This document shows positions 135-36,612 of a stretch of 39,105 bases of DNA, piece after piece (position 1 is the first letter of the stretch; each line of letters opens with the position of its first letter). Below the pieces are notes generated by a model. The model was not told the DNA's origin and ran no database searches. It saw only the letters and a list, made by a program, of their open reading frames with translations. Location of the stretch: the NCBI GenBank assembly GCA_016235825.1, contig JACRIL010000125.1, forward strand, positions 1 through 39,105. Direction: 5' to 3'. Source of the DNA: Planctomycetota bacterium (lineage in GTDB: Bacteria; Planctomycetota; Phycisphaerae; SM23-33). Made by a program: the position numbers and the translations under genes.

Positions 135-1304
135 TTAGAGTCCTTTGGGTAAAACCATCGGTTGAAAAATTGCCGGCCTTATCGCCGGGACGGTGGATGC
201 GGGCGGGGGGTTATCCGATTCACCAATCCGCGTTGCCGGGGTTGGCGTGGCGGTGGATGTGGCTGGGGGTTTAACAGGTTCGGAAATATTTGTATCTGGA
301 ACTGGTTCATTACGTTGGGTCGCCGGAGGTTTTGGGGGTTCCGTAATCCATGTGGCCTGCCGCGTGGTGGGGCCGTTGCCGTTGAGTTCGGGGATTCTGC
401 CGGAGATGACATCATCGATCTTTGCGGCGATATAGTCTTCGATGAGCAGGCCCTTCTGGAGCATGTCCTGGAGGAATGGGATGGCGGGCATGTCGAGCTT
501 TTTGGGTCCGGAGGCGGCCTGATATACCAACTGGACGTGCTGCGATGGGATGCTGAATGCGTCAAGCACGCCGAACATGACGAGCATGGGGCATGTGAGT
601 CTTGCGGCGGCGTTGACGGCCGACGCGGCGGCCGGGTCGAATTCGGCGGTCGAGGCGGCTTCGGCCATCACGCCGTAAAAATCCTGGTCGGGCGCCAGCG
701 GCATGGCCAGCCGGACCAGACTGCGGAAATCCATCGCGGGCGTATCGACGATGACGCCCCTGCACCTTTTATCCTCCGCGGCCAGTTCTATCGCCGCCAT
801 CGCGCTGACCATGCTGCCGAAGACGTACACGTTTGGGTTCAGCCCGCACTGTGCGATGCATTCGTCCAGCACAGCCGACAGGTCGGCCCGCTCCCTGACG
901 CCGTAGGTGAAATATTTTCCCGTGCTCCGTCCGTGCGCCCGCAGGTCGGGCAGGATGACGTCGTATCCCATTTTGGCCAACCGCTCGCCGACGCCCAGGA
1001 ACGGGAAGTCCGCCTTGCTGCCCTTGAACGAGTGCAGGACCAGAACGGTCGCGCGGGCGGGTCCGGCCTGCTCTTTTGCCCTGATGACCCAGACATCCAG
1101 CGTAACGCCGCCGGAGTTCACCTGCCTGTGGGCCGAGATTCTGCCCTGCTTTATCAGCTCCTGCGGCTCGGGCAGAAAGAAATACGCCTGCGTGCTGCGG
1201 ACCCTGTCGACCTGGACAAGCTGCGCGGCATGATCGGTCTGCGAACAGCCGGCAGCCAGCGCGGCCGCCGCCGCAACCGTCAACAACCATTTTGTCCGTT
1301 TCAT
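135..1304 (-). CDS. Alpha/beta-hydrolase-fold lipoprotein lacking the nucleophile (paralog 1 of 3)
   Basis: A 389-residue predicted lipoprotein with a basic N-terminus, hydrophobic stretch and lipobox LAAGC (Cys20). The alpha/beta-hydrolase core covers about residues 65-300 and keeps the family landmarks VLHSF (89-93), DLRAHGRSTGK (120-130) and a strand-7 Asp (Asp248 in GVLDAF). At the nucleophile elbow it reads YVFGSMVSA (160-168), where the two neighbouring paralogs have GTSMG and GLSVG, so no GxSxG is present and Met165 aligns with the catalytic Ser. The C-terminal region that supplies the His in paralog 2 has none here. Residues 304-380 form a Pro/Thr-rich tail with repeated EPxKPPAT-like units. 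The start ATG has GGAG 8 bases upstream. It follows paralog 2 by 36 bases and is probably in the same transcript. It is probably non-catalytic, perhaps a binding or scaffold protein; that role is inference. Confidence 0.85.
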   Translation of the reverse strand: MKRTKWLLTVAAAAALAAGCSQTDHAAQLVQVDRVRSTQAYFFLPEPQELIKQGRISAHRQVNSGGVTLDVWVIRAKEQAGPARATVLVLHSFKGSKADFPFLGVGERLAKMGYDVILPDLRAHGRSTGKYFTYGVRERADLSAVLDECIAQCGLNPNVYVFGSMVSAMAAIELAAEDKRCRGVIVDTPAMDFRSLVRLAMPLAPDQDFYGVMAEAASTAEFDPAAASAVNAAARLTCPMLVMFGVLDAFSIPSQHVQLVYQAASGPKKLDMPAIPFLQDMLQKGLLIEDYIAAKIDDVISGRIPELNGNGPTTRQATWITEPPKPPATQRNEPVPDTNISEPVKPPATSTATPTPATRIGESDNPPPASTVPAIRPAIFQPMVLPKGL

Positions 1305-1340
1305 ATAGTTTCTCCATTCCCATCCGTCTGCGGCCGCATT

Positions 1341-2267
1341 TTACAATCCTTTGGCGATCATTTCATCCATCTGTTTTGCGAGCCACGGCTCGCGGCCCCA
1401 CGGCGTAGATGCGTGATCGGCGAAGGGAATCTCGATGAGTTTCTTTGGTCCGGCGGCGGCCTGGCAGATTTCGCGGCTGTGGCGGATCGGCACGACGGTG
1501 TCGGCCGTGCCGTGCACCAGCAGCAGCGGCTTGCCCAGACGGGCCGCGGCGATAATGGCCGATGCGTCGGCCGGCTCGAACCCGGCGATCTGGCCGGCAC
1601 GCGCGACCACCTCGTCGAGCTGCTTTTGCGGCATCCACTGCCAGAGCTGCCGGGCCACGCCCTGTATGTCCCTGGGCGGCTCGACCGCGCAGACGGCCTT
1701 GCACCTCTCGTCGTCCGCGGCGTACATGATCGCGATAGACGCACCCATGCTCGTGCCGTAGGCGTAAAACGGCGTCCGGATCGCTCCCTCGGCCAGCAGG
1801 CGGTCCATGACGGCCTTCACGTCCTTCCGCTCAATCGCGCCCCAGCCGATATATTTTCCGCTGCTCCTGCCGTGCGCCCGGAAATCGACCAGCACGACCT
1901 GGTAGCCCAGGCCGGAAAGCTGCCTTGCGACGGGAAGGTATCGGGCCTTGCTGTCCAGCCAGCCGTGCAGCACCACGACGGCGCCCTTCGCCCCGGCCGG
2001 CGCCGTCTGCGATTGTCCGGCCTCGTCCGGCCCGACCGGGTTTACCAGCCAGACGTTCAGATTCACGCCGTCCCCGACGGCGATGTTGCGGAAACCGCTT
2101 ATCGTCCCCTTGCGAACCATTTCCTCGTCTGACGGGAACGCCATTAAATGCAATCTTCCCATAGCGGCGTCGGGGGCGACAAGCTGGTTGGCGAAGTAAT
2201 CGTTCCCGCAGCCGGCGGCGAGGGCCGGCAGAAGGATCAGAAAACCTATCCTTATTCTCATTTGCAT
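1341..2267 (-). CDS. Alpha/beta-hydrolase lipoprotein with intact catalytic triad (paralog 2 of 3)
   Basis: A 308-residue lipoprotein with signal segment MRIRIGFLILLPALAAGC and lipid-attachment Cys20. All three triad residues are visible: Ser173 in YGTSMG, Asp256 in HGTADTVVP and His285 in FADHAST. The lid region and VDFRAHGRSSGKY motif match esterase/acylaminopeptidase-like serine hydrolases (COG1073-like). The substrate cannot be predicted. The frame is open a further 39 codons upstream to 2384, but that extension reads through repeat-like DNA and would bury the signal peptide, so ATG 2267 (or ATG 2261) was chosen; neither has a strong Shine-Dalgarno. It is the only one of the three tandem paralogs with a complete triad. 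A dispersed repeat oriented the same way ends about 130 bases upstream. Confidence 0.87.
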   Translation of the reverse strand: MQMRIRIGFLILLPALAAGCGNDYFANQLVAPDAAMGRLHLMAFPSDEEMVRKGTISGFRNIAVGDGVNLNVWLVNPVGPDEAGQSQTAPAGAKGAVVVLHGWLDSKARYLPVARQLSGLGYQVVLVDFRAHGRSSGKYIGWGAIERKDVKAVMDRLLAEGAIRTPFYAYGTSMGASIAIMYAADDERCKAVCAVEPPRDIQGVARQLWQWMPQKQLDEVVARAGQIAGFEPADASAIIAAARLGKPLLLVHGTADTVVPIRHSREICQAAAGPKKLIEIPFADHASTPWGREPWLAKQMDEMIAKGL

Positions 2268-2339
2268 TTTCAGGTTCTCATCCCAAAACGTGGTTGGGTA
2301 CTGCTCAGATGCTGAGCCGGACGAGTCCATCTTGTAATC

Positions 2340-2385
2340 CCGGCAGGGCGTCTGACAGTAGCCCCTTCGCGGAGCCAGTCGCAAG
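2340..2385 (-). repeat. Decayed fragment of the dispersed repeat
   Basis: Read on the minus strand, this stretch (GCGAAGGGGCTACTGTCAGA and onward) resembles the right part of the longer repeat copies at 2400-2655, 2718-3005 and 11205-11445, which contain CCCGGGGCTACTATCTGCC followed by CCCTGCGGG. It sits just outside copy A in the same orientation and looks like a degenerate partial copy. Found by eye; the exact ends are uncertain. Confidence 0.35.
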
Positions 2386-2399
2386 GTGAGATAATAGTT

Positions 2400-2655
2400 C
2401 TGCCAGTGCAGGAGTACCTTGTGGATTCATCGCCTCCAATTTCAAGGCCCGCAGGGCCGGCAGATAGTAGCCCCGGGTGCAGCAAGTCCGCCGCCAGGCG
2501 GACGAAGCGGAACCCGGGGTTTAGCGTCATTCGACATGTTCCAAAATCCTGCTCGCGCCACGGCAGATGAAACTGGATATTGGAACAACCCGGCCGACGA
2601 TTCTCAGCGAGGCATTTATTTTTCCTGGGGAAAAGCGATGCCCATCCGAGCATTT
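2400..2655 (-). repeat. Dispersed intergenic repeat, copy A (minus orientation)
   Basis: Its reverse complement aligns over about 250 bases with copy B (2718-3005) and copy C (11205-11445). Shared landmarks in order are CGGATGGG, ATAAATG, TCTGCCGTGGCG, CCCCGGGTTCCGCTTCGTCC, a complementary arm ending ACCCGGGGCTAC, and CTGCCGGCCCTGCGGGCC. The CCCCGGGTTCCGC and CCCGGGGCTAC parts can pair as a hairpin arm. With copy B it forms a large imperfect inverted repeat centred near 2690. No credible coding sequence, so this is probably a non-autonomous or REP-like element; its function is unknown. Confidence 0.7.
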
Positions 2656-2717
2656 TTACCACGACTGGTTTATCTGACGGAGCTTCCAGCTTCGCCAAAG
2701 CTATGCCGGACGATTCA
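2656..2717. other. Centre of the inverted repeat pair (no gene)
   Basis: About 60 bases between the inner ends of copies A and B. The sequence is not obviously palindromic itself, and no start codon with a ribosome binding site was seen. Together with the flanking repeats it makes the whole 2268-3173 stretch gene-free. Confidence 0.4.
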
Positions 2718-3005
2718 GCAAAACCGGATGGGGGTGTTTTTTTCCCCCACGACGGATAAATGTTTCGCCGTAGACCATTGGCTGGGACGGATGAGGAATT
2801 TTGCAGAGTCTGCCGGTGGCGGGATCGGAAATTCGAAACTTCATTGAATGGGCCGGTTTTCCCCGGGTTCCGCTTCGTCCGCCTGGTGGCGGACTCCGCT
2901 TTACCCGGGGCTACTATCTGCCGGCCCTGCGGGCCTCTAATTTGGTGGCGATAAATCCGCAAGTTATCCTTGTCCTTCTGAAAACTCATGCAATGAAGCA
3001 AAACT
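2718..3005 (+). repeat. Dispersed intergenic repeat, copy B (plus orientation)
   Basis: Homologous to copy A in inverted orientation and to copy C in direct orientation. It starts at CCGGATGGGGGTG and runs through TCTGCCGGTGGCGGGATCGG, CCCCGGGTTCCGCTTCGTCC, ACCCGGGGCTACTATCTGCC and a tail matching copy C (GTCCTTCTGAAAA). It points towards the 3' end of hydrolase paralog 3. The remaining 3006-3173 is unique-looking sequence in which no gene can be supported. Confidence 0.7.
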
Positions 3006-3173
3006 GATACCGGTACTGGTCGGTGAAACCGGAACTGTCCGACGAATCCTCTTGTAACCAATTCATTGCCGGTTCCTGTCGGCGGCTGTAACGCGACAAA
3101 CGCAAAGTTGTTCTTCCGCCCGGCCGCCATCTCATTCACCACGTTTTGGCGAGGAGTACCCATTTTCACTTTT

Positions 3174-4208
3174 CTACTCGATGAAATTTCCGGCCGGTTT
3201 ATCGGCGGGCTTTTCGGCCGGTCTGGTAGCCGGGCCGGCGGAAGGTTTGATTTTGCCCGCCTTCTGGGCCATGCGGGCGAACTGCTGCGCCAGCCATTTC
3301 TCATTCTCCGTGTCGAGCATGTTGCGCCCGGCGAACTTCGCCTCGATGAGTTCTTTTGGCCCCTTTGCCGCGGCGAGAATCTCTTTGGACGATTCCATCG
3401 GCATGAACGTGTCCGCCGTGCCGTGCACGATATACAACGGACAGACGAGCTTGCCGGCCGCTTTTATAGCCGAGGCCTGGGCCGGATCGAACGACGCCAT
3501 CATCCCCGCCTTTGCCACCACCGCCTGCACCTGCTCGTCCGTAAGATACGGGAACATCCGTTTTGCGGCGTAATGCACGTCCTTGGGCGGGGCCACTGCC
3601 AGCACGCCCCTGCATCGCGGATCGGCCGCCGCATACTGTATCGCCATAAGCCCGCCGACAGACAGGCCCATCGCGAAGACCGGCGGTTCGATCTCCCCGC
3701 CGTTCATCATGGTGTCGACAATGAGCTTGACGTCCAGACTCTCCTTGATGCCCCAGGTTACATACTCGCCGCCGCTGCGCCCGTGCATCCTGATATCGAT
3801 CAGCAGCACCGAACAACCCAGGCCGGCGATCTCGTGAGCCAGGTCCAGGCAGGACGCCTTGCTGTCGCCCAGGTCGTGAAGCAGAACGACGCATCCCGTT
3901 ATTTCTTCAGCGGTGAAGGTCACGTCAATTTCGACCCCGGCGGTCGGCCTGCCCTTTACCAGCCAGACGTCGATCACGGTATCTTCATCAACCGCGATCC
4001 GGCGAAAATCCTGTATCTGGTTCTCGCGGAACAATTCCTTCTCGGTTCCGGCCAGCCGCATCTTCATCTTTCCGCGCGCGGTGCCCGGCTGGACCAGTTC
4101 CTTGGCGTAATAATCCTGGCCGCAGCCGGCAAGGAAGGCAGCAGCCATGCACGCGGCCGCAACCAGCGATGCTCTCAACCCGTTTTTTCCGGCAATCCCG
4201 CTCATCAT
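3174..4208 (-). CDS. Alpha/beta-hydrolase lipoprotein, catalytic His replaced (paralog 3 of 3)
   Basis: A 344-residue lipoprotein with lipobox LAGC at Cys29. It shares the fold and landmark order of the two downstream paralogs: VLLHDLGDSKAS (108-119), IDIRMHGRSGGEY (137-149), nucleophile elbow AMGLSVGG (Ser183) and HGTADTFMP (Asp266). Where paralog 2 has FADHAST, this protein has FAGRNML, so Arg295 (codon CGC, one base from a His codon) stands in place of the catalytic His. The C-terminal tail (320-344) is Pro/Lys/Ala-rich. Two adjacent ATG codons are possible starts, with AAAGG 6-9 bases upstream. It begins 19 bases after the mutL stop and is probably co-transcribed with it. It may be inactive or use another base; that cannot be decided from the sequence. 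Confidence 0.85.
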   Translation of the reverse strand: MMSGIAGKNGLRASLVAAACMAAAFLAGCGQDYYAKELVQPGTARGKMKMRLAGTEKELFRENQIQDFRRIAVDEDTVIDVWLVKGRPTAGVEIDVTFTAEEITGCVVLLHDLGDSKASCLDLAHEIAGLGCSVLLIDIRMHGRSGGEYVTWGIKESLDVKLIVDTMMNGGEIEPPVFAMGLSVGGLMAIQYAAADPRCRGVLAVAPPKDVHYAAKRMFPYLTDEQVQAVVAKAGMMASFDPAQASAIKAAGKLVCPLYIVHGTADTFMPMESSKEILAAAKGPKELIEAKFAGRNMLDTENEKWLAQQFARMAQKAGKIKPSAGPATRPAEKPADKPAGNFIE

Positions 4209-4227: not shown

Positions 4228-6189
4228 CTACGTCCTTTTAAAAAGTTTGGCAAGCTCCTTGAGCGACAGTTTGACCGTGGTGGGTCTTCCGTGGGGGCAG
4301 GCCGATGATTTTTCCGTGTCATCGCGGGCCGCAAGCAGCTCGGTTATCTCCGACTGTTCGAGCCTCTGGCCGGCCTTTATCGCCGCCTTGCACGCCAGAA
4401 CCTCAAGCACGTCCTCGATCAGCCGTTCCTGCCCTGCGTTTTCATCCTCGGCCAGCATGTCGAGAACCTGCATGAGAAAATCAACGGGCTGGGCGCCCCT
4501 TTCCGTCAGAACCGCCGGAAAACTCTGGACGGCGAAACTGTCCGGCCCGAAGCTCCCGACCTCGATTCCCAGCCGCCCCAGCAGCGCGGCGTGTTCCTTC
4601 AACTGGGCGGCCTCCGATCCGGTTACTTTCAGGACCGGCGGGATAAGCAGCCGCTGGCCTGCCAGCGAACCGTCCGCAAGGCGGCGCTTGAGATCGTTGT
4701 AAAGCATCCGCTCGTGCAGCGCATGCTGATCGACGATAAGCACTCCGTCTTCGCAGGGCGCGACAATATAGCTGTCGTGTATCTGAATGGCCTGCATGGC
4801 CGGACAGGCGGCGGAAGCGGCCGGTCCGATCGGCTGCGGCCTGGCCGCCGCGGTTGGCCATTCGGCAACCTGAACCGCCTGATCCGTGCGCGGGTCGGCG
4901 GCGCTGGCCGCCGGCCGATTCGCCGCAGCGCCTCCGTGCGGGCCAAACGCGGCCATTTCCGGGCGGTTCTGCCACGCCGGACGGGACGGTTCGCCGAATT
5001 GAAGCCCAGGCTGGGGCGGCGGGGCTGATTTGAAAAAATCGGCCAGCGCCTGGCGAAGCGAATCGCGGCGAGTCGCGTCGGCCGCATCCGCCCGCACGGT
5101 CAGATTCCGGTCGGCCTTCCAGCCGGCGATCTCACTGCCCTGCCCGGCAATCTGCGATTGTTCCGTCCTTCCGGCAAGTGCGGCCTCGGGCGTCAGGCTG
5201 GCGCGATTGAGCGTCTCTTTCAGGGCCGCGAGCAACTGGCCGTGCACAAACTGGCTGTCGCGGAACCGCACCTCGACCTTGGCCGGATGAACGTTCACGT
5301 CCACCTCGGCCGGGTCGATTTCGATGAAGATTATCGCCGCCGGCCACAGCGACGGATCGACCAGCCCGCGGTAGGCCTCCTTCAGGGCGTGCGAGAGCAG
5401 GCGGTCGCGGATGCACCGGCCGTTGAGGAAAAAATATTGCCACTTGTTCGACGACCTCGCCCCGGCGGGTCTGCTGACCAGTCCGCTTATCGCGACGGCC
5501 GATTTCCGCGGGCAGATCGAGACCATCTGGCCGGCCATCTCCCTGCCCAGCACCTCGCCGGCCCGCTCCAGCGGCGACTGCCCCGCCGGCATGTCCATGA
5601 TTATCTTGCCGTTGTGCAGCACCCTGAACGCCACCCGCGGATGCGGCAGGGCGAGCCTGGCCGTCTGCTCGGTTGCGTGCCCCAGTTCGGTGGCCGTGCT
5701 CTTGAGGAATTTTCGTCTGGCCGGCGTGTTGTAGAAAAGGTCCATCGCCTGCACCGTGGTCCCGACGTCGCCCGCCCACGGCCGCACCTGGCCCGCCTGC
5801 CCGCCCGACGCCTCGATCTGCCACCCGCCGCCGTCGCCGCCAGCCTGGCGGGTCCGGATCGCCGCGCGGGAGATCGACGCGATCGACGCCAGCGCCTCGC
5901 CACGGAAACCCATCGTGCGAATCGCGAACAGGTCGTCGTCGCCTGCGATCTTGCTTGTGGCGTGCGAAATGAACGCCAGAGCCAGGTCCTCGCGGTCCAT
6001 CCCGCTGCCGTTGTCAGAGACGATAACCGCCTTTTTCCCGCCGTCCTCCAGGTCGATCCGCACGCTGGAGGCCCCGGCGTCCAGCGAATTCTCGACCAGT
6101 TCCTTGACGATGCTGGCCGGACGCTCTATCACCTCGCCGGCCGCGATCTTGTTCACCAGGTGCGTCGGAAGTATCTTGATAAGCGGCAT
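4228..6189 (-). CDS. mutL: DNA mismatch repair protein MutL
   Basis: A 653-residue MutL, the ATPase that links mismatch recognition by MutS to downstream repair. The GHKL ATPase domain is complete: KELVENSLDAG with Glu30 and Asn34, DNGSGM (59-64), SHATSKI (75-81) and GFRGEALASI (94-103). A low-complexity Pro/Ala/Arg linker spans about 335-465. The C-terminal dimerisation domain carries the endonuclease-type motifs DQHALHER (487-494), ACKAAIKAG (599-607) and CPHGRP (631-636). The first normally reads DQHAx2Ex4E; the last Glu is Asn498 here, with Asp499 next to it. The presence of the other motifs argues that this is a nicking-type MutL rather than the E. coli type. No mutS or miaA lies next to it. 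Downstream is hydrolase paralog 3. Confidence 0.96.
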   Translation of the reverse strand: MPLIKILPTHLVNKIAAGEVIERPASIVKELVENSLDAGASSVRIDLEDGGKKAVIVSDNGSGMDREDLALAFISHATSKIAGDDDLFAIRTMGFRGEALASIASISRAAIRTRQAGGDGGGWQIEASGGQAGQVRPWAGDVGTTVQAMDLFYNTPARRKFLKSTATELGHATEQTARLALPHPRVAFRVLHNGKIIMDMPAGQSPLERAGEVLGREMAGQMVSICPRKSAVAISGLVSRPAGARSSNKWQYFFLNGRCIRDRLLSHALKEAYRGLVDPSLWPAAIIFIEIDPAEVDVNVHPAKVEVRFRDSQFVHGQLLAALKETLNRASLTPEAALAGRTEQSQIAGQGSEIAGWKADRNLTVRADAADATRRDSLRQALADFFKSAPPPQPGLQFGEPSRPAWQNRPEMAAFGPHGGAAANRPAASAADPRTDQAVQVAEWPTAAARPQPIGPAASAACPAMQAIQIHDSYIVAPCEDGVLIVDQHALHERMLYNDLKRRLADGSLAGQRLLIPPVLKVTGSEAAQLKEHAALLGRLGIEVGSFGPDSFAVQSFPAVLTERGAQPVDFLMQVLDMLAEDENAGQERLIEDVLEVLACKAAIKAGQRLEQSEITELLAARDDTEKSSACPHGRPTTVKLSLKELAKLFKRT

Positions 6190-7563: not shown

Positions 7564-8943
7564 TCAGCCTTCCAGATTGTATTCCTTTATCTTCCTGTAA
7601 AGCGTGCGCTCGCCGATGCCGAGTATGGCCGCCGCCTGCTCGCGGTTGCCGCCGACCATCTTGAGCGTGTTGCGGATCAGCTCTTTCTCGGCCTCTTGAA
7701 GGCTTATGCCCGCCAGCCCGCTCAACTGCTCGCTGCGCAACTCGCCTGCGGGGCGATTGACGTCCTCCGGCACGTCGGCAAGCGTCAGCCTGGGCTGGGC
7801 CGCCATAACCACCATGTTCTCGACCACGTTGCGAAGCTGCCTGACGTTGCCCGGCCAGGGGTACGTCGCCAGAGCCCGCCTGGCGTCCGGCTCGATGCCC
7901 TTTACGCTCTTGCCGTGAACTTCATCTGCCCGGCGGATGAAATGATCGATCAGCAGCGGAATGTCGTCGGGCCTCTGGCGAAGAGGCGGGATCTCGATCG
8001 TCGCGCCCTTGACCCGGAAATACAGGTCCTCGCGGAACGTCTTGTCCTTGACCTTCTGCTCCAGATCGCTGTTGGTGGCGCTGATGATCCGCACGTTGAC
8101 CCGTTTTGGCTCGTTGGAGCCGACCCGGACGACCTCGCCGTTCTCCAGCACCCGCAGCAGCTTGGCTTGCATGGCCAGCGGCATGTCGCCGACCTCGTCG
8201 AGGAACATCGTCCCGCCGTCGGCGTGCTCGAACCGCCCCGGCCGGTCGCCGGCGGCGCCAGTGAACGCCCCCTTGACGTGCCCGAAAAGCTCATCCTCCA
8301 GCAGCGACTCGCTCAAGCCGGCGCAGTTGATGGCCGCAAACCGCATCTGCGACCGGCTGGAGTTCTGGTGGATCGCGTTGGCCAGCAGTTCCTTGCCCGT
8401 GCCGCTCTCGCCGAGGATCAGGACCGGGATGTTCGAGCCGGCGATCCGGCGGATGGTGTCGAGCACCTTGAGCATCGCCGGACTCCTGCCGATGATGCTC
8501 CCGAAGCCGAACTGCTCGTCCAGCCGGCCTTTCAACTCGGTTATTATCTTCTTCTGGTCGGCCATCTCCGCCGCCCGCGCGACGACCGCGCGAAGCTCGT
8601 CGATGTCCAGCGGCTTTTCGATGTAGTCGAACGCGCCCTTCTGGAGCGCCTCGCGGCAGGTCTGCACGGTCGAGTGGGCCGTGATGAGAATGACCTTGCA
8701 GGCTGGGTCGGCTTTAAGCGCCTCCTCCAGCACGCCGATGCCGTCGATCTGCCCGCCAAGACGCAGGTCCGTCAGGACGATGTCGAACCGCTTTTTGCCG
8801 ATCTGATCGAGGGCCGACTTGCCGTCGTGAACCATCGTGCATGTGTGGCCCGCCCGCGACAGGCCCTCGGATATCGCCTCCGCGTGCGCCCGTTCGTCCT
8901 CGACGATCAGTATCTCCGCTACAGGTTTCGCTGATGGTTCCAT
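7564..8943 (-). CDS. Sigma-54-dependent response regulator, NtrC family
   Basis: A 459-residue three-domain regulator. The receiver domain (about 8-125) has acidic-pocket residues Glu15 and Asp16, phosphoacceptor Asp59 (VLTDLRLGG) and Lys110 in YIEKPLD. The AAA+ domain has Walker A GESGTGK (178-184), the sigma-54 contact loop GAFTGA (225-230), Walker B TMFLDEVGD and the arginine-finger region FREDLYFRV. The C-terminal Fis-type HTH reads NREQAAAILGIGERTLYRK. It would activate sigma-54 promoters after phosphorylation. No sensor kinase gene is adjacent, so it is an orphan here. The frame extends 17 codons upstream to a TTG at 8994, but ATG 8943 places the receiver domain correctly and is preferred; a Shine-Dalgarno is weak at both. 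Confidence 0.95.
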   Translation of the reverse strand: MEPSAKPVAEILIVEDERAHAEAISEGLSRAGHTCTMVHDGKSALDQIGKKRFDIVLTDLRLGGQIDGIGVLEEALKADPACKVILITAHSTVQTCREALQKGAFDYIEKPLDIDELRAVVARAAEMADQKKIITELKGRLDEQFGFGSIIGRSPAMLKVLDTIRRIAGSNIPVLILGESGTGKELLANAIHQNSSRSQMRFAAINCAGLSESLLEDELFGHVKGAFTGAAGDRPGRFEHADGGTMFLDEVGDMPLAMQAKLLRVLENGEVVRVGSNEPKRVNVRIISATNSDLEQKVKDKTFREDLYFRVKGATIEIPPLRQRPDDIPLLIDHFIRRADEVHGKSVKGIEPDARRALATYPWPGNVRQLRNVVENMVVMAAQPRLTLADVPEDVNRPAGELRSEQLSGLAGISLQEAEKELIRNTLKMVGGNREQAAAILGIGERTLYRKIKEYNLEG

Positions 8944-9060
8944 TGAGCCGACCAAAGTAATGCCCCCAAGCCCGGAAGTCAATTCAGACCGCAACTTTGT
9001 GTGTTATGGAAGACGATTTGATTGGTGCGTTGTGGCCCAGCCGCCCTTTGTGTAATCTCA

Positions 9061-33010: not shown

Positions 33011-33255
33011 ATTATTCATCCCAATGGTGAGAATCCAGACAAGATGCTCCCCCACCGACATTTCCTGAAACTGCCGGACGTACAAAGCACCTTACAGGAA
33101 GTCCGGAATTTTGTGGCAATTTGCCGCGGCCGGCAATATTATTTACATCTGACGATCAAAATTTATCAAATCTTATCCTTTTCGGGATTCAACCGGGCGG
33201 TTCGGCGGCGCCGGGCCTGCGGACCTGAAAAATGGAAAGAAGGGAGAAGTTGAAA

Positions 33256-36200
33256 ATGCCAGTCGTCCAAAGGGTTCTTGCGGCTGTTTCGGCGGCGATA
33301 TTCATCACGATGCCCCTTTCTGCCCAGCAGCCGGCGAGCAGCCAGCCGGCCGGCGGCAACGCGGCTGCTGAACTGACGATAACCGAAAAAGTCGTCAGGC
33401 CGGCCGACAAGGTCCCGCCGCTGGGCGCCAACGAATACGGCAAGTCCGGCATCGAATGGGCGGCGAACAATTTCATCAACATGACTTCATGCGGCGAGCC
33501 GATCATCTGGCGGAACCTGCACCGGGCCGCCAACTGCGGAGACGACTGGTTCGAGGCGGACGGCGGAGGAAATAGCTGGTACGATCTGTGGGGGACCGGC
33601 TTTTTGAGCGGCGCGAACGTCCGCATATACCGCATCGTCGACAAGGACGGCAATGCCCTGCCGGAAAAAGACAACTACCTGGACCTCGCCGCGGCCGATC
33701 GCGTCATCCTGGTCGGCCAAACCAGAATTATCCCCGAAGGCGACAAGGATTTCCCCGACGGCGGGTGGATTATCGGCAAGTTCGGCAACGTCAATCGCTA
33801 TACCAGCCTCAAAGGCGAAAACCTCCATTGCACGGACAACCGCGGCACTGAAAACGGCAGGACGTACTGGTACACGCTCCATGCGGTCAGTCCGGACAAC
33901 GTCGAATCCGATGCGTCCAGCGAGGCCAGCGCCTCGCCGCAAAAGGCCCAGGACACTCCCCCCTGTCTGCTCCCTCACAACGAGGCCGACAATCTTAACG
34001 ATCTGAAGGCCAACGCCCCATGGGAATTCAGGCCGTTGGCGACCGGCGGGGCAGAGCCGCTGAAGTGGTCGGTGGTCGATGAAAACGGCGGAGAGTTAAA
34101 GTTGCCCGAGGGGCTTTCTGTCGACCCGGCCACCGGCAAGATATCCGGCAAGGTCGCGGCGGATGTCAAGGCCTTCAAATTCGCAGTCAAGGTCGCCGAC
34201 TCAAAAGACAAATCCGACACGCGGATCTATGTCATCAATCCAGACAAGCCCGCCAGCCAAGGCAAGGACAAGCCCCAGCCGCCCTCGGAACTCAAGGCGA
34301 CGGCCGGCGACGGCTGCGTCATGCTCTCGTGGAAGGCCAGCCAGACGCCCGGCGTCCAATACCGCGTCAAGCGTTCAAACCAGCCCCCCGACAGGCGGTT
34401 CAACCGGGCCTTCATCCCCAAGGACGGCCCGAAGCTCAAAAAGCTCGATTACATCGTGCTGGAAAAAAATTTCGGCCTGGACTTCAACATGAAGTACGTC
34501 CATCCTCGCGTCAGGGGCATCGTCGGCGACTTCAACCTTGTCGGTTCGTCGTCGGCATGGAATGTCTCGGATGCGACCAAGCTCGCGCTTTCGACGGTCG
34601 CGCACCCCAAGCCTCCACCGCCTGAAATGACGGACGCGGGCGGGGCCTGCTTCAAGGCCGCCGCAAAGGATGGTGAAAATTACGTTCACCAGTACGCCTT
34701 CATCGCCGCCGACGTGCCAGGAGAAAACCTCTGGTGGGCCCAGCTCGAACCGGGCAAGCATTACGTCGCCGAGGTCTGGCTGATGCAGGAAGGCCTGGCC
34801 AACGACGGGACGATCAAATTCTCGCTGGGGCAGGGATACCCGGACATCTCGCACGATTTCAAGGTTGGCGGCGAGTGGAAGAAATACGTCTTCGAGTTCG
34901 ACGGCCCGCCGCGTCCGGCCTTGTCGGTGTACAGATGGCATTTCGGACCCAGGCTCACGTTCACGGGACCCGGGACGATATGGATGGACAATTTCAGGTT
35001 CTTCCGCTGCGACAAGCCCGAGGACGCGGCAAAAAAATATGTGCCGAACGCCACGGTCCTCAACGAACTGATCGCCAGCCAGCCGGAAAAAGGCCCCAAG
35101 GGCGCTCATCGGATATGGTTCCTTGCCCGCGACGCCACGATGGCGTCGATCCTGGGCTGGCACGCGAATAACCAGGTGCGGCCGGATTGGCGGACCGGAG
35201 TAAACAGCACGATGAAGATGACCGCTCCGATGGGCCTGAGCTTCGATCTCCTTACCGGCGATTCGCCCCAGACCCGGATGAGGCCGTGGATCGTGCTTCA
35301 GCACATCCTGCACACTGAACAGGACTGGCTGAATTTCATCGAATACATGGCCGCACCCTACGATCCGCAGAAAGACTCGCCCGAACAAAAGCCCTGGGCA
35401 TACAAGCGGTACCAGCAGCGCGGCACGGGCACGCCCTGGACCGACGAGTTCGCGCAGATCGTCATCGAATTCGGCAACGAGACGTGGCATAACGGCGTGT
35501 TCGAGGACTGGCTGGGCTTCAAGACCAGAAACGCCGTGCATCAGGGCGGCACGGAATACGGCCTGTTCACGAAGTATCTCATCGGGAACATCCAGAAAAG
35601 CCCGCACTGGAAACCGCTGAATCTCGACCAGAAGATCAAATTCTGTCTGGGTGCAAATTACGACGGCCGCATGGACACGGATGGCAAACCCCAGTCCTAC
35701 GGCGAGCAGGCGATTTACATGGACAAACTTTCCACCATGCTCGGCCATGCCAATTACGTCGGCCCCAAGTGGGAAAGAGGCGAAGTCTCTTCGACGACCT
35801 TCGACGATCACGGCGTGCAGGGATGCCTGCTGGGCTTTCTGACCTCGATGAAAGATACTCAAACCTCACATCGGCAGGCTCGCGATATGATTGTCAAGTC
35901 CCGGCCTGAATACGACCTGGTCGCCTACGAGGGCGGCCCGAGCGGATACACCCTGCCAGGTTCGGGCACGCCGCCCGAGCAGGTCGCGGTCAACGAGAAG
36001 TACGGCAAGTCGCTGGCACTGGCGGTCGGGACGCTCGACGGCTGGCTGGCCAGCTACGGCCTGGGCTGGACATACCAGAACTACCTGGGCTACGGCCAGG
36101 GCAGATACTGGTCCAGCCACACGCTTTTTTTCCAGGATTTCCGCCCGCATATCGCATGGCTGGCCCTGAAAATGCGGAACCGCTACGCCAGCGGCGACCT

Positions 36201-36612
36201 GATGGACGTGCAGGAGACCGCCATGCCGACGGTCAACTTCGGCAAGAAGACCTACCCGCTGGTCGGCTGCTACGCGATGAGGGACAAGAACCGCTGGTCG
36301 GTCTTCGTGCTCTCCCGCAAGCTGGGCGGCAAACACGACAACGCCGACTTCGGCGACGGCGCCACGCCGGTTGCGCTCACACTGCCGTTCAAAAAATGCG
36401 GCAAGATCACGCTCTACACGCTCACCGGCGACCCGCGGGCCAACAACACCGACTCGATGGCCGTAGATATCAAGACCGCGGAGATACCCGCAAAGGCGCT
36501 ATCGGCCGACGGAAAACTCGTCGTCAACCAGGACAGCGGCGGAGTGGCCGGCGGCCTGCCGCAAGGCTCGATATTCCTCTACGTCTTCGAGGACGCCGCC
36601 GCGGGCGGGTGA
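33256..36612 (+). CDS. Large secreted putative glycoside hydrolase (clan GH-A-like)
   Basis: An 1118-residue exported protein. Signal peptide MPVVQRVLAAVSAAIFITMP ends near SAQ, followed by a SSQPAGG linker. Residues about 60-225 form a beta-rich domain (IWRNLHRAANCGDDWFE); about 235-325 resemble an Ig/cadherin-like putative-Ig domain (LPEGLSVDPATGKISGKVA); a CBM-like beta-sandwich lies about 470-610 (TIWMDNFRFFR). The catalytic part (620-980) has IEFGNETWHNG with Glu742, like the acid/base Asn-Glu of clan GH-A, and VAYEGGPSGY with Glu892 where a nucleophile Glu would be. The C-terminal ~100 residues are a beta-sandwich typical after GH-A barrels. Substrate unknown. ATG chosen at 33256 with GGGAG 9-10 bases upstream; ATG 33232 is possible. 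Confidence 0.75.
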   Translation: MPVVQRVLAAVSAAIFITMPLSAQQPASSQPAGGNAAAELTITEKVVRPADKVPPLGANEYGKSGIEWAANNFINMTSCGEPIIWRNLHRAANCGDDWFEADGGGNSWYDLWGTGFLSGANVRIYRIVDKDGNALPEKDNYLDLAAADRVILVGQTRIIPEGDKDFPDGGWIIGKFGNVNRYTSLKGENLHCTDNRGTENGRTYWYTLHAVSPDNVESDASSEASASPQKAQDTPPCLLPHNEADNLNDLKANAPWEFRPLATGGAEPLKWSVVDENGGELKLPEGLSVDPATGKISGKVAADVKAFKFAVKVADSKDKSDTRIYVINPDKPASQGKDKPQPPSELKATAGDGCVMLSWKASQTPGVQYRVKRSNQPPDRRFNRAFIPKDGPKLKKLDYIVLEKNFGLDFNMKYVHPRVRGIVGDFNLVGSSSAWNVSDATKLALSTVAHPKPPPPEMTDAGGACFKAAAKDGENYVHQYAFIAADVPGENLWWAQLEPGKHYVAEVWLMQEGLANDGTIKFSLGQGYPDISHDFKVGGEWKKYVFEFDGPPRPALSVYRWHFGPRLTFTGPGTIWMDNFRFFRCDKPEDAAKKYVPNATVLNELIASQPEKGPKGAHRIWFLARDATMASILGWHANNQVRPDWRTGVNSTMKMTAPMGLSFDLLTGDSPQTRMRPWIVLQHILHTEQDWLNFIEYMAAPYDPQKDSPEQKPWAYKRYQQRGTGTPWTDEFAQIVIEFGNETWHNGVFEDWLGFKTRNAVHQGGTEYGLFTKYLIGNIQKSPHWKPLNLDQKIKFCLGANYDGRMDTDGKPQSYGEQAIYMDKLSTMLGHANYVGPKWERGEVSSTTFDDHGVQGCLLGFLTSMKDTQTSHRQARDMIVKSRPEYDLVAYEGGPSGYTLPGSGTPPEQVAVNEKYGKSLALAVGTLDGWLASYGLGWTYQNYLGYGQGRYWSSHTLFFQDFRPHIAWLALKMRNRYASGDLMDVQETAMPTVNFGKKTYPLVGCYAMRDKNRWSVFVLSRKLGGKHDNADFGDGATPVALTLPFKKCGKITLYTLTGDPRANNTDSMAVDIKTAEIPAKALSADGKLVVNQDSGGVAGGLPQGSIFLYVFEDAAAGG

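Follow-up and report, generated by a model that had tools for sequence, protein, structure and literature searches.

Predicted pseudoenzymes that are maintained and arose more than once in a lipoprotein hydrolase family of Phycisphaerae

The best-known non-catalytic proteins built on the alpha/beta-hydrolase fold, namely neuroligins, NDRG proteins and GID1, are eukaryotic. In the animal neuroligins and NDRG proteins, the residues of the catalytic triad are replaced (PMC5943944, PMC7022630); the gibberellin receptor GID1 derives from an active hydrolase ancestor and has lost the active-site His, with Ser and Asp kept (PMC3531792). For Bacteria, a literature search of partial coverage found no precedent for a non-catalytic family of this fold. 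The three lipoprotein genes described here, termed A, B and C, are located on a 39,105-nucleotide contig of a Planctomycetota bacterium (JACRIL010000125.1; the whole of this stretch is called the window), which is part of a metagenome-assembled genome of 276 contigs, 94% complete. A and C resemble neuroligins and NDRG proteins in the replacement of triad residues on an alpha/beta-hydrolase fold; however, the latter are eukaryotic, are unrelated to them at the family level and have known roles in adhesion or signalling. C is also similar to GID1, since the His is lost while Ser and Asp are retained; this likeness concerns the residues only, as GID1 belongs to the plant hormone-sensitive-lipase family and uses a lid to bind DELLA proteins. 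With the Hydrolase_4 group of monoacylglycerol lipase and feruloyl esterase-like serine hydrolases (PF12146; PDB 5g59, 2wtm, 7qjm, 7q4h), the three proteins share the fold, the HG oxyanion motif and the D-R-HG-S-G loop, and B also shares the GxSxG elbow and the triad. Differently from these enzymes, A, B and C are lipoproteins, with about 13-23% identity to the solved structures, and A and C lack catalytic residues.

All three genes are on the reverse strand. Gene A (135-1304) encodes a 389-residue lipoprotein with an alpha/beta-hydrolase fold, in which the elbow is GSMVS and Met165 (codon ATG) occupies the position of the nucleophile; Asp248 is present, and none of its His residues (25, 59, 91, 124 and 256) falls at the place of the catalytic one, with no other His after residue 256. 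Gene B (1341-2267; 308 residues) carries in the alignment a complete Ser173-Asp256-His285 triad (Ser AGC, His CAC; elbow GTSMG) and is predicted to be an active esterase or lipase-like serine hydrolase. Gene C (3174-4208; 344 residues) encodes a predicted inactive protein with Ser183 (TCT; elbow GLSVG) and Asp266, having Arg295 (CGC) in place of His; thus, the alignment gives a full Ser-Asp-His triad for B and for neither A nor C. An N-terminal signal with a lipobox Cys is found in each sequence (LAAGC, LAAGC and LAGC in A, B and C, respectively), for which lipoprotein processing is predicted, and this residue, Cys20, is conserved at 95-100% throughout the family. The coordinates, residue numbers and lipoboxes given in an earlier note on this DNA all proved right when reading frames and alignment were rechecked; its description of the genes as tandem fits A and B, which are same-strand neighbours separated by 36 bases, and is loose for C, since a 906-base dispersed repeat is found between C and B. 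Matches to Pfam Hydrolase_4 reach 36.7 bits for A, 81.7 for B and 65.7 for C, against a curated cut-off of 27 bits; because all three pass it and similar replacements are seen repeatedly in other family members, the pattern exceeds chance. Matches of the three proteins to named NCBIfam hydrolase families were all far under the cut-offs. A ends with a Pro/Thr-rich tail of about 75 residues (window 135-430, from about residue 311) that is predicted to be disordered; C ends in a short tail rich in Pro, Ala and Lys, and no tail is present in B.

AlphaFold models of A and C were built from a 27-sequence alignment, the triad of B being read from the alignment only. Both proteins are predicted to form complete alpha/beta-hydrolase folds of the canonical type with a nucleophile elbow, as indicated by the models and by Foldseek searches, with mean pLDDT of 83.5 for A and 87.8 for C and values mostly above 90 in the core (residues 21-270 in A). 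In the model of A, strand 159-164 and helix 166-177 set the elbow exactly at Met165; in that of C, strand 177-182 and helix 184-195 set it exactly at Ser183, and Arg295 opens the helix that follows the last strand (285-290). Structure prediction, which the earlier note had suggested as a check, thus has Met165 of A at the nucleophile elbow, and the statement of that note that the landmarks of the fold are retained is borne out by the confident models together with the Hydrolase_4 scores. The nearest solved structures to both models are esterases and monoacylglycerol lipases (5g59, 7qjm, 2wtm), with 5g59 as the best PDB match of A (E 1.5e-14). A shifted register in A, with Ser164 or Ser167 as nucleophile, was discarded, since A and B align without gaps between the elbow and the AAxDxRC motif and the model has Met165 at the elbow; a substitute His elsewhere in A was also discarded, as His256 directly follows the Asp loop and its counterparts in the alignment belong to a non-catalytic region.

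The lipoprotein hydrolase family to which these proteins belong is nearly restricted to one order of Phycisphaerae, probably SM23-33, an order described with two families (PMC11266412). Of the 34 other genomes of the same taxonomic family, 26 contain close relatives, as does one of three genomes from the remainder of the order; among 397 genomes searched in the class, only two more have them. Strong matches in public records are all titled Planctomycetota or Phycisphaerae. Among 40 aligned members, mostly about 35-45% identical to one another, the Ser-Asp-His triad is complete in 21, and the remaining 19 are without Ser, His or both. The states of the latter at the Ser, Asp and His positions are TDQ and GDH (three members each), SDQ and DDH (two each) and, in single members, NDH, DNA, TDE, EDR, KDQ, NDQ, GNY and SDR, the last being C, in addition to A. 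At the Ser position, members without an intact triad can thus have T, G, D, N, E, K or M, and Asp is kept in 17 of the 19; six retain His, two of them with Asp as the nucleophile-position residue. Within the 19, the nucleophile column contains eight residue types and lies at the 94th percentile of entropy, a value that is partly built in because the grouping uses these columns. The glycines flanking this position are near-invariant in the same sequences (Gly171 100%, Gly175 95%), as is the loop D-x-R-x-H-G-x-S-x-G, and D128, R130, H132, G133, H101, K107, W73 and D149 are conserved at 95-100%. Some of these states are shared by separate assemblies, with Gly-Asp-His common to three species of the same genus and Thr-Asp-Gln and Ser-Asp-Gln each occurring in two; the change from His to Gln occurs with a common PGPE[Q/H] or PGIEQ motif kept across divergent members. 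The architecture of some relatives is different. A single 570-residue frame (locus L106, 7961-9670) contains two consecutive hydrolase domains, seen as two Hydrolase_4 stretches, and in one genus frames of about 700 residues (L101, 6066-8165; L102, 7665-9734) carry some 350 extra residues past the hydrolase domain, which in L101 have no Pfam family match.

The inactive members that could be compared in pairs are under purifying selection. Within three genera, comparisons between inactive relatives gave dN/dS values (NG86) of 0.132, 0.115, 0.115, 0.157 and 0.147, similar to those of intact pairs (0.172, 0.184, 0.119, 0.082 and 0.097), which indicates that the inactive members are maintained; moreover, their orthologues are open frames. 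These pairs come from relatives only, since A, B and C are without a close orthologue and no other genome of the same genus as the window is present in the set. In the relatives, therefore, catalytic residues are replaced while fold and purifying selection are kept, as defines a pseudoenzyme; A and C look maintained, by analogy with the relatives as regards selection and from their own sequences as regards fold and replacements. The earlier note had described the proteins as maintained rather than decaying, and this view agrees with the relatives of A, B and C, where low dN/dS and open frames were found instead of random decay with frameshifts, and extends to A and C by analogy.

Phylogenetic analyses, performed on alignments without the catalytic columns, revealed a more complex history than a single loss. 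In the tree without outgroup, a group of 21 members (20 intact and C) is separated from a group of 19 (18 inactive and the intact L095) with support of 93/90; when the outgroup is included, the 21 form a clade (96/91) and the remainder is not resolved as one. An arrangement with all inactive members in one clade, as after a single loss, was rejected (AU p 6e-12), also when C was left out (p 1.5e-4, owing to L095), and loss must therefore have happened more than once; the fewest changes of catalytic state on the trees are three or four. B and C are sisters in three trees (99/95, 98/94 and 99/95), within a mostly intact lineage, and A is a separate deep branch that groups with the inactive set. 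A joins L119 (92/91 and 82/91), its placement being unstable when L119 is removed, and a clade of A, B and C was not rejected (AU p 0.099 and 0.109); long branches lead to A (1.2-1.7) and to C (1.2). B is intact in every arrangement, so that A and C lost their residues separately, unless B regained them. The pairing of B with C speaks against a stepwise loss along the array, and the idea of the earlier note that the triad disappeared step by step gives way to separate losses in A and C.

In the window the family adjoins mutL (4228-6189, reverse strand), upstream of which an NtrC-type response regulator is encoded (7564-8994, reverse strand; Response_reg, Sigma54_activat and HTH_8 domains). Both neighbours are conserved: of 34 loci retrieved from relatives, 17 have mutL next to the family, as does the window, and the usual order is histidine kinase, LarA-like racemase, NtrC-type regulator, MutL and hydrolase, followed in several loci by GMP synthase. 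The old home of the family is best explained as the position directly downstream of mutL, which is held by intact as well as by inactive members. The repeat between C and B (2268-3173; inverted-repeat arms 2415-2483/2898-2966 and 2485-2519/2861-2895) has 130 matching stretches in the genome, this copy included, most of them about 70-91% identical, and looks like a non-coding mobile element family. Elsewhere in the window, a 1126-residue open frame (33232-36612) without Pfam match at 1e-6 adjoins the frame of a HEAT-repeat protein (36657 onward).

The reading that we consider likely is that A and C are lipoproteins that use an esterase-type pocket for binding and not for hydrolysis, in a family that also includes the catalytic B; the loss of chemistry is predicted from their sequences. 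B would be the competent copy, whose fold and triad suggest hydrolysis of an ester-type substrate as its probable role at the envelope. A and C would be folded lipoproteins, presumably at the envelope as well, incapable of Ser-His chemistry; their preserved pocket most likely holds ligands of the class bound by B, or some other component of the envelope, and does not turn them over. Against a role as binders, the replacement residues are very mixed and no single new active-site function is apparent. As for the loss of activity, an Asp at the nucleophile position, found in two members that keep His (L108, GADLGG; L109, GFDLGG; both Asp-Asp-His), can act as nucleophile in other alpha/beta-hydrolases, as established for haloalkane dehalogenases and epoxide hydrolases; some inactive-looking members might thus be enzymes with altered chemistry. 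This appears improbable, since close relatives have at the same position a Gly, which is unable to act, and A combines Met with the absence of His while C has Arg for His. A neutral decay of A and C, as duplicates heading to loss, would agree with their long branches and with the mixed replacements; it is nevertheless unlikely, and more so than altered chemistry, given open frames of 389 and 344 codons, confident folds, dN/dS of 0.12-0.16 in inactive relatives and GC contents at the three codon positions (A 0.63/0.48/0.75, C 0.62/0.44/0.77) that resemble those of intact genes (B 0.66/0.47/0.82). Unlikeliest of all is that the Arg codon of C is a sequencing or assembly error: a single base separates CGC from CAC and the genome is a metagenome-assembled draft, but the whole motif differs (FAGRNML in C, against FADHAST) and L114 also has Arg at this position (CGG).

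The earlier note had also seen in the locus a unit of one active enzyme with two pseudoenzyme partners. Its composition holds, as B is intact and A and C are without a triad, and three other loci (L103, L105 and L111) place an inactive copy side by side with an intact one, the inactive one first; together with the short distance between A and B on one strand, this could suggest that A and C act on B at their common membrane, as regulators or as subunits of one complex. Such a functional unit is doubtful, since the order differs from that of the other pairs, A being distal to B, the element of about 900 bases splits C from B, and two genomes (G007 and G023) carry inactive and active members on different contigs. 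Moreover, four near-complete genomes (G010, G012, G016 and G019; 93-97% complete) have one member each, which is inactive; an obligatory active partner from the family can thus be dismissed in general, while the genome of the window might still have one. Similarly tentative is the proposal that members of the family change from enzyme to pseudoenzyme and back, with catalysis regained, at a single conserved place on the chromosome. L095 (7551-8513) is Ser-Asp-His, yet it is nested among Asp and Gly members (97/98), and single-step codon parsimony around it prefers a GA- ancestor (Asp or Glu), an ancestral serine needing at least two additional steps. The catalytic Ser is encoded by AGC in L095 and B and by TCN in all 19 remaining intact members, and the serine may have passed via a non-serine codon. 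As a relaxed site changes fast, the codons argue only weakly for a regained serine in L095.

More than as a unit or a stepwise series, A and C with their relatives are described as a maintained series of pseudoenzymes, arisen more than once in one bacterial lipoprotein family. Within one bacterial order, 19 apparently inactive members coexist with 21 intact relatives, often at the same chromosomal position and after repeated losses. The family is thus a natural series for asking which role the fold has after its chemistry is lost, and whether lost catalysis can return.
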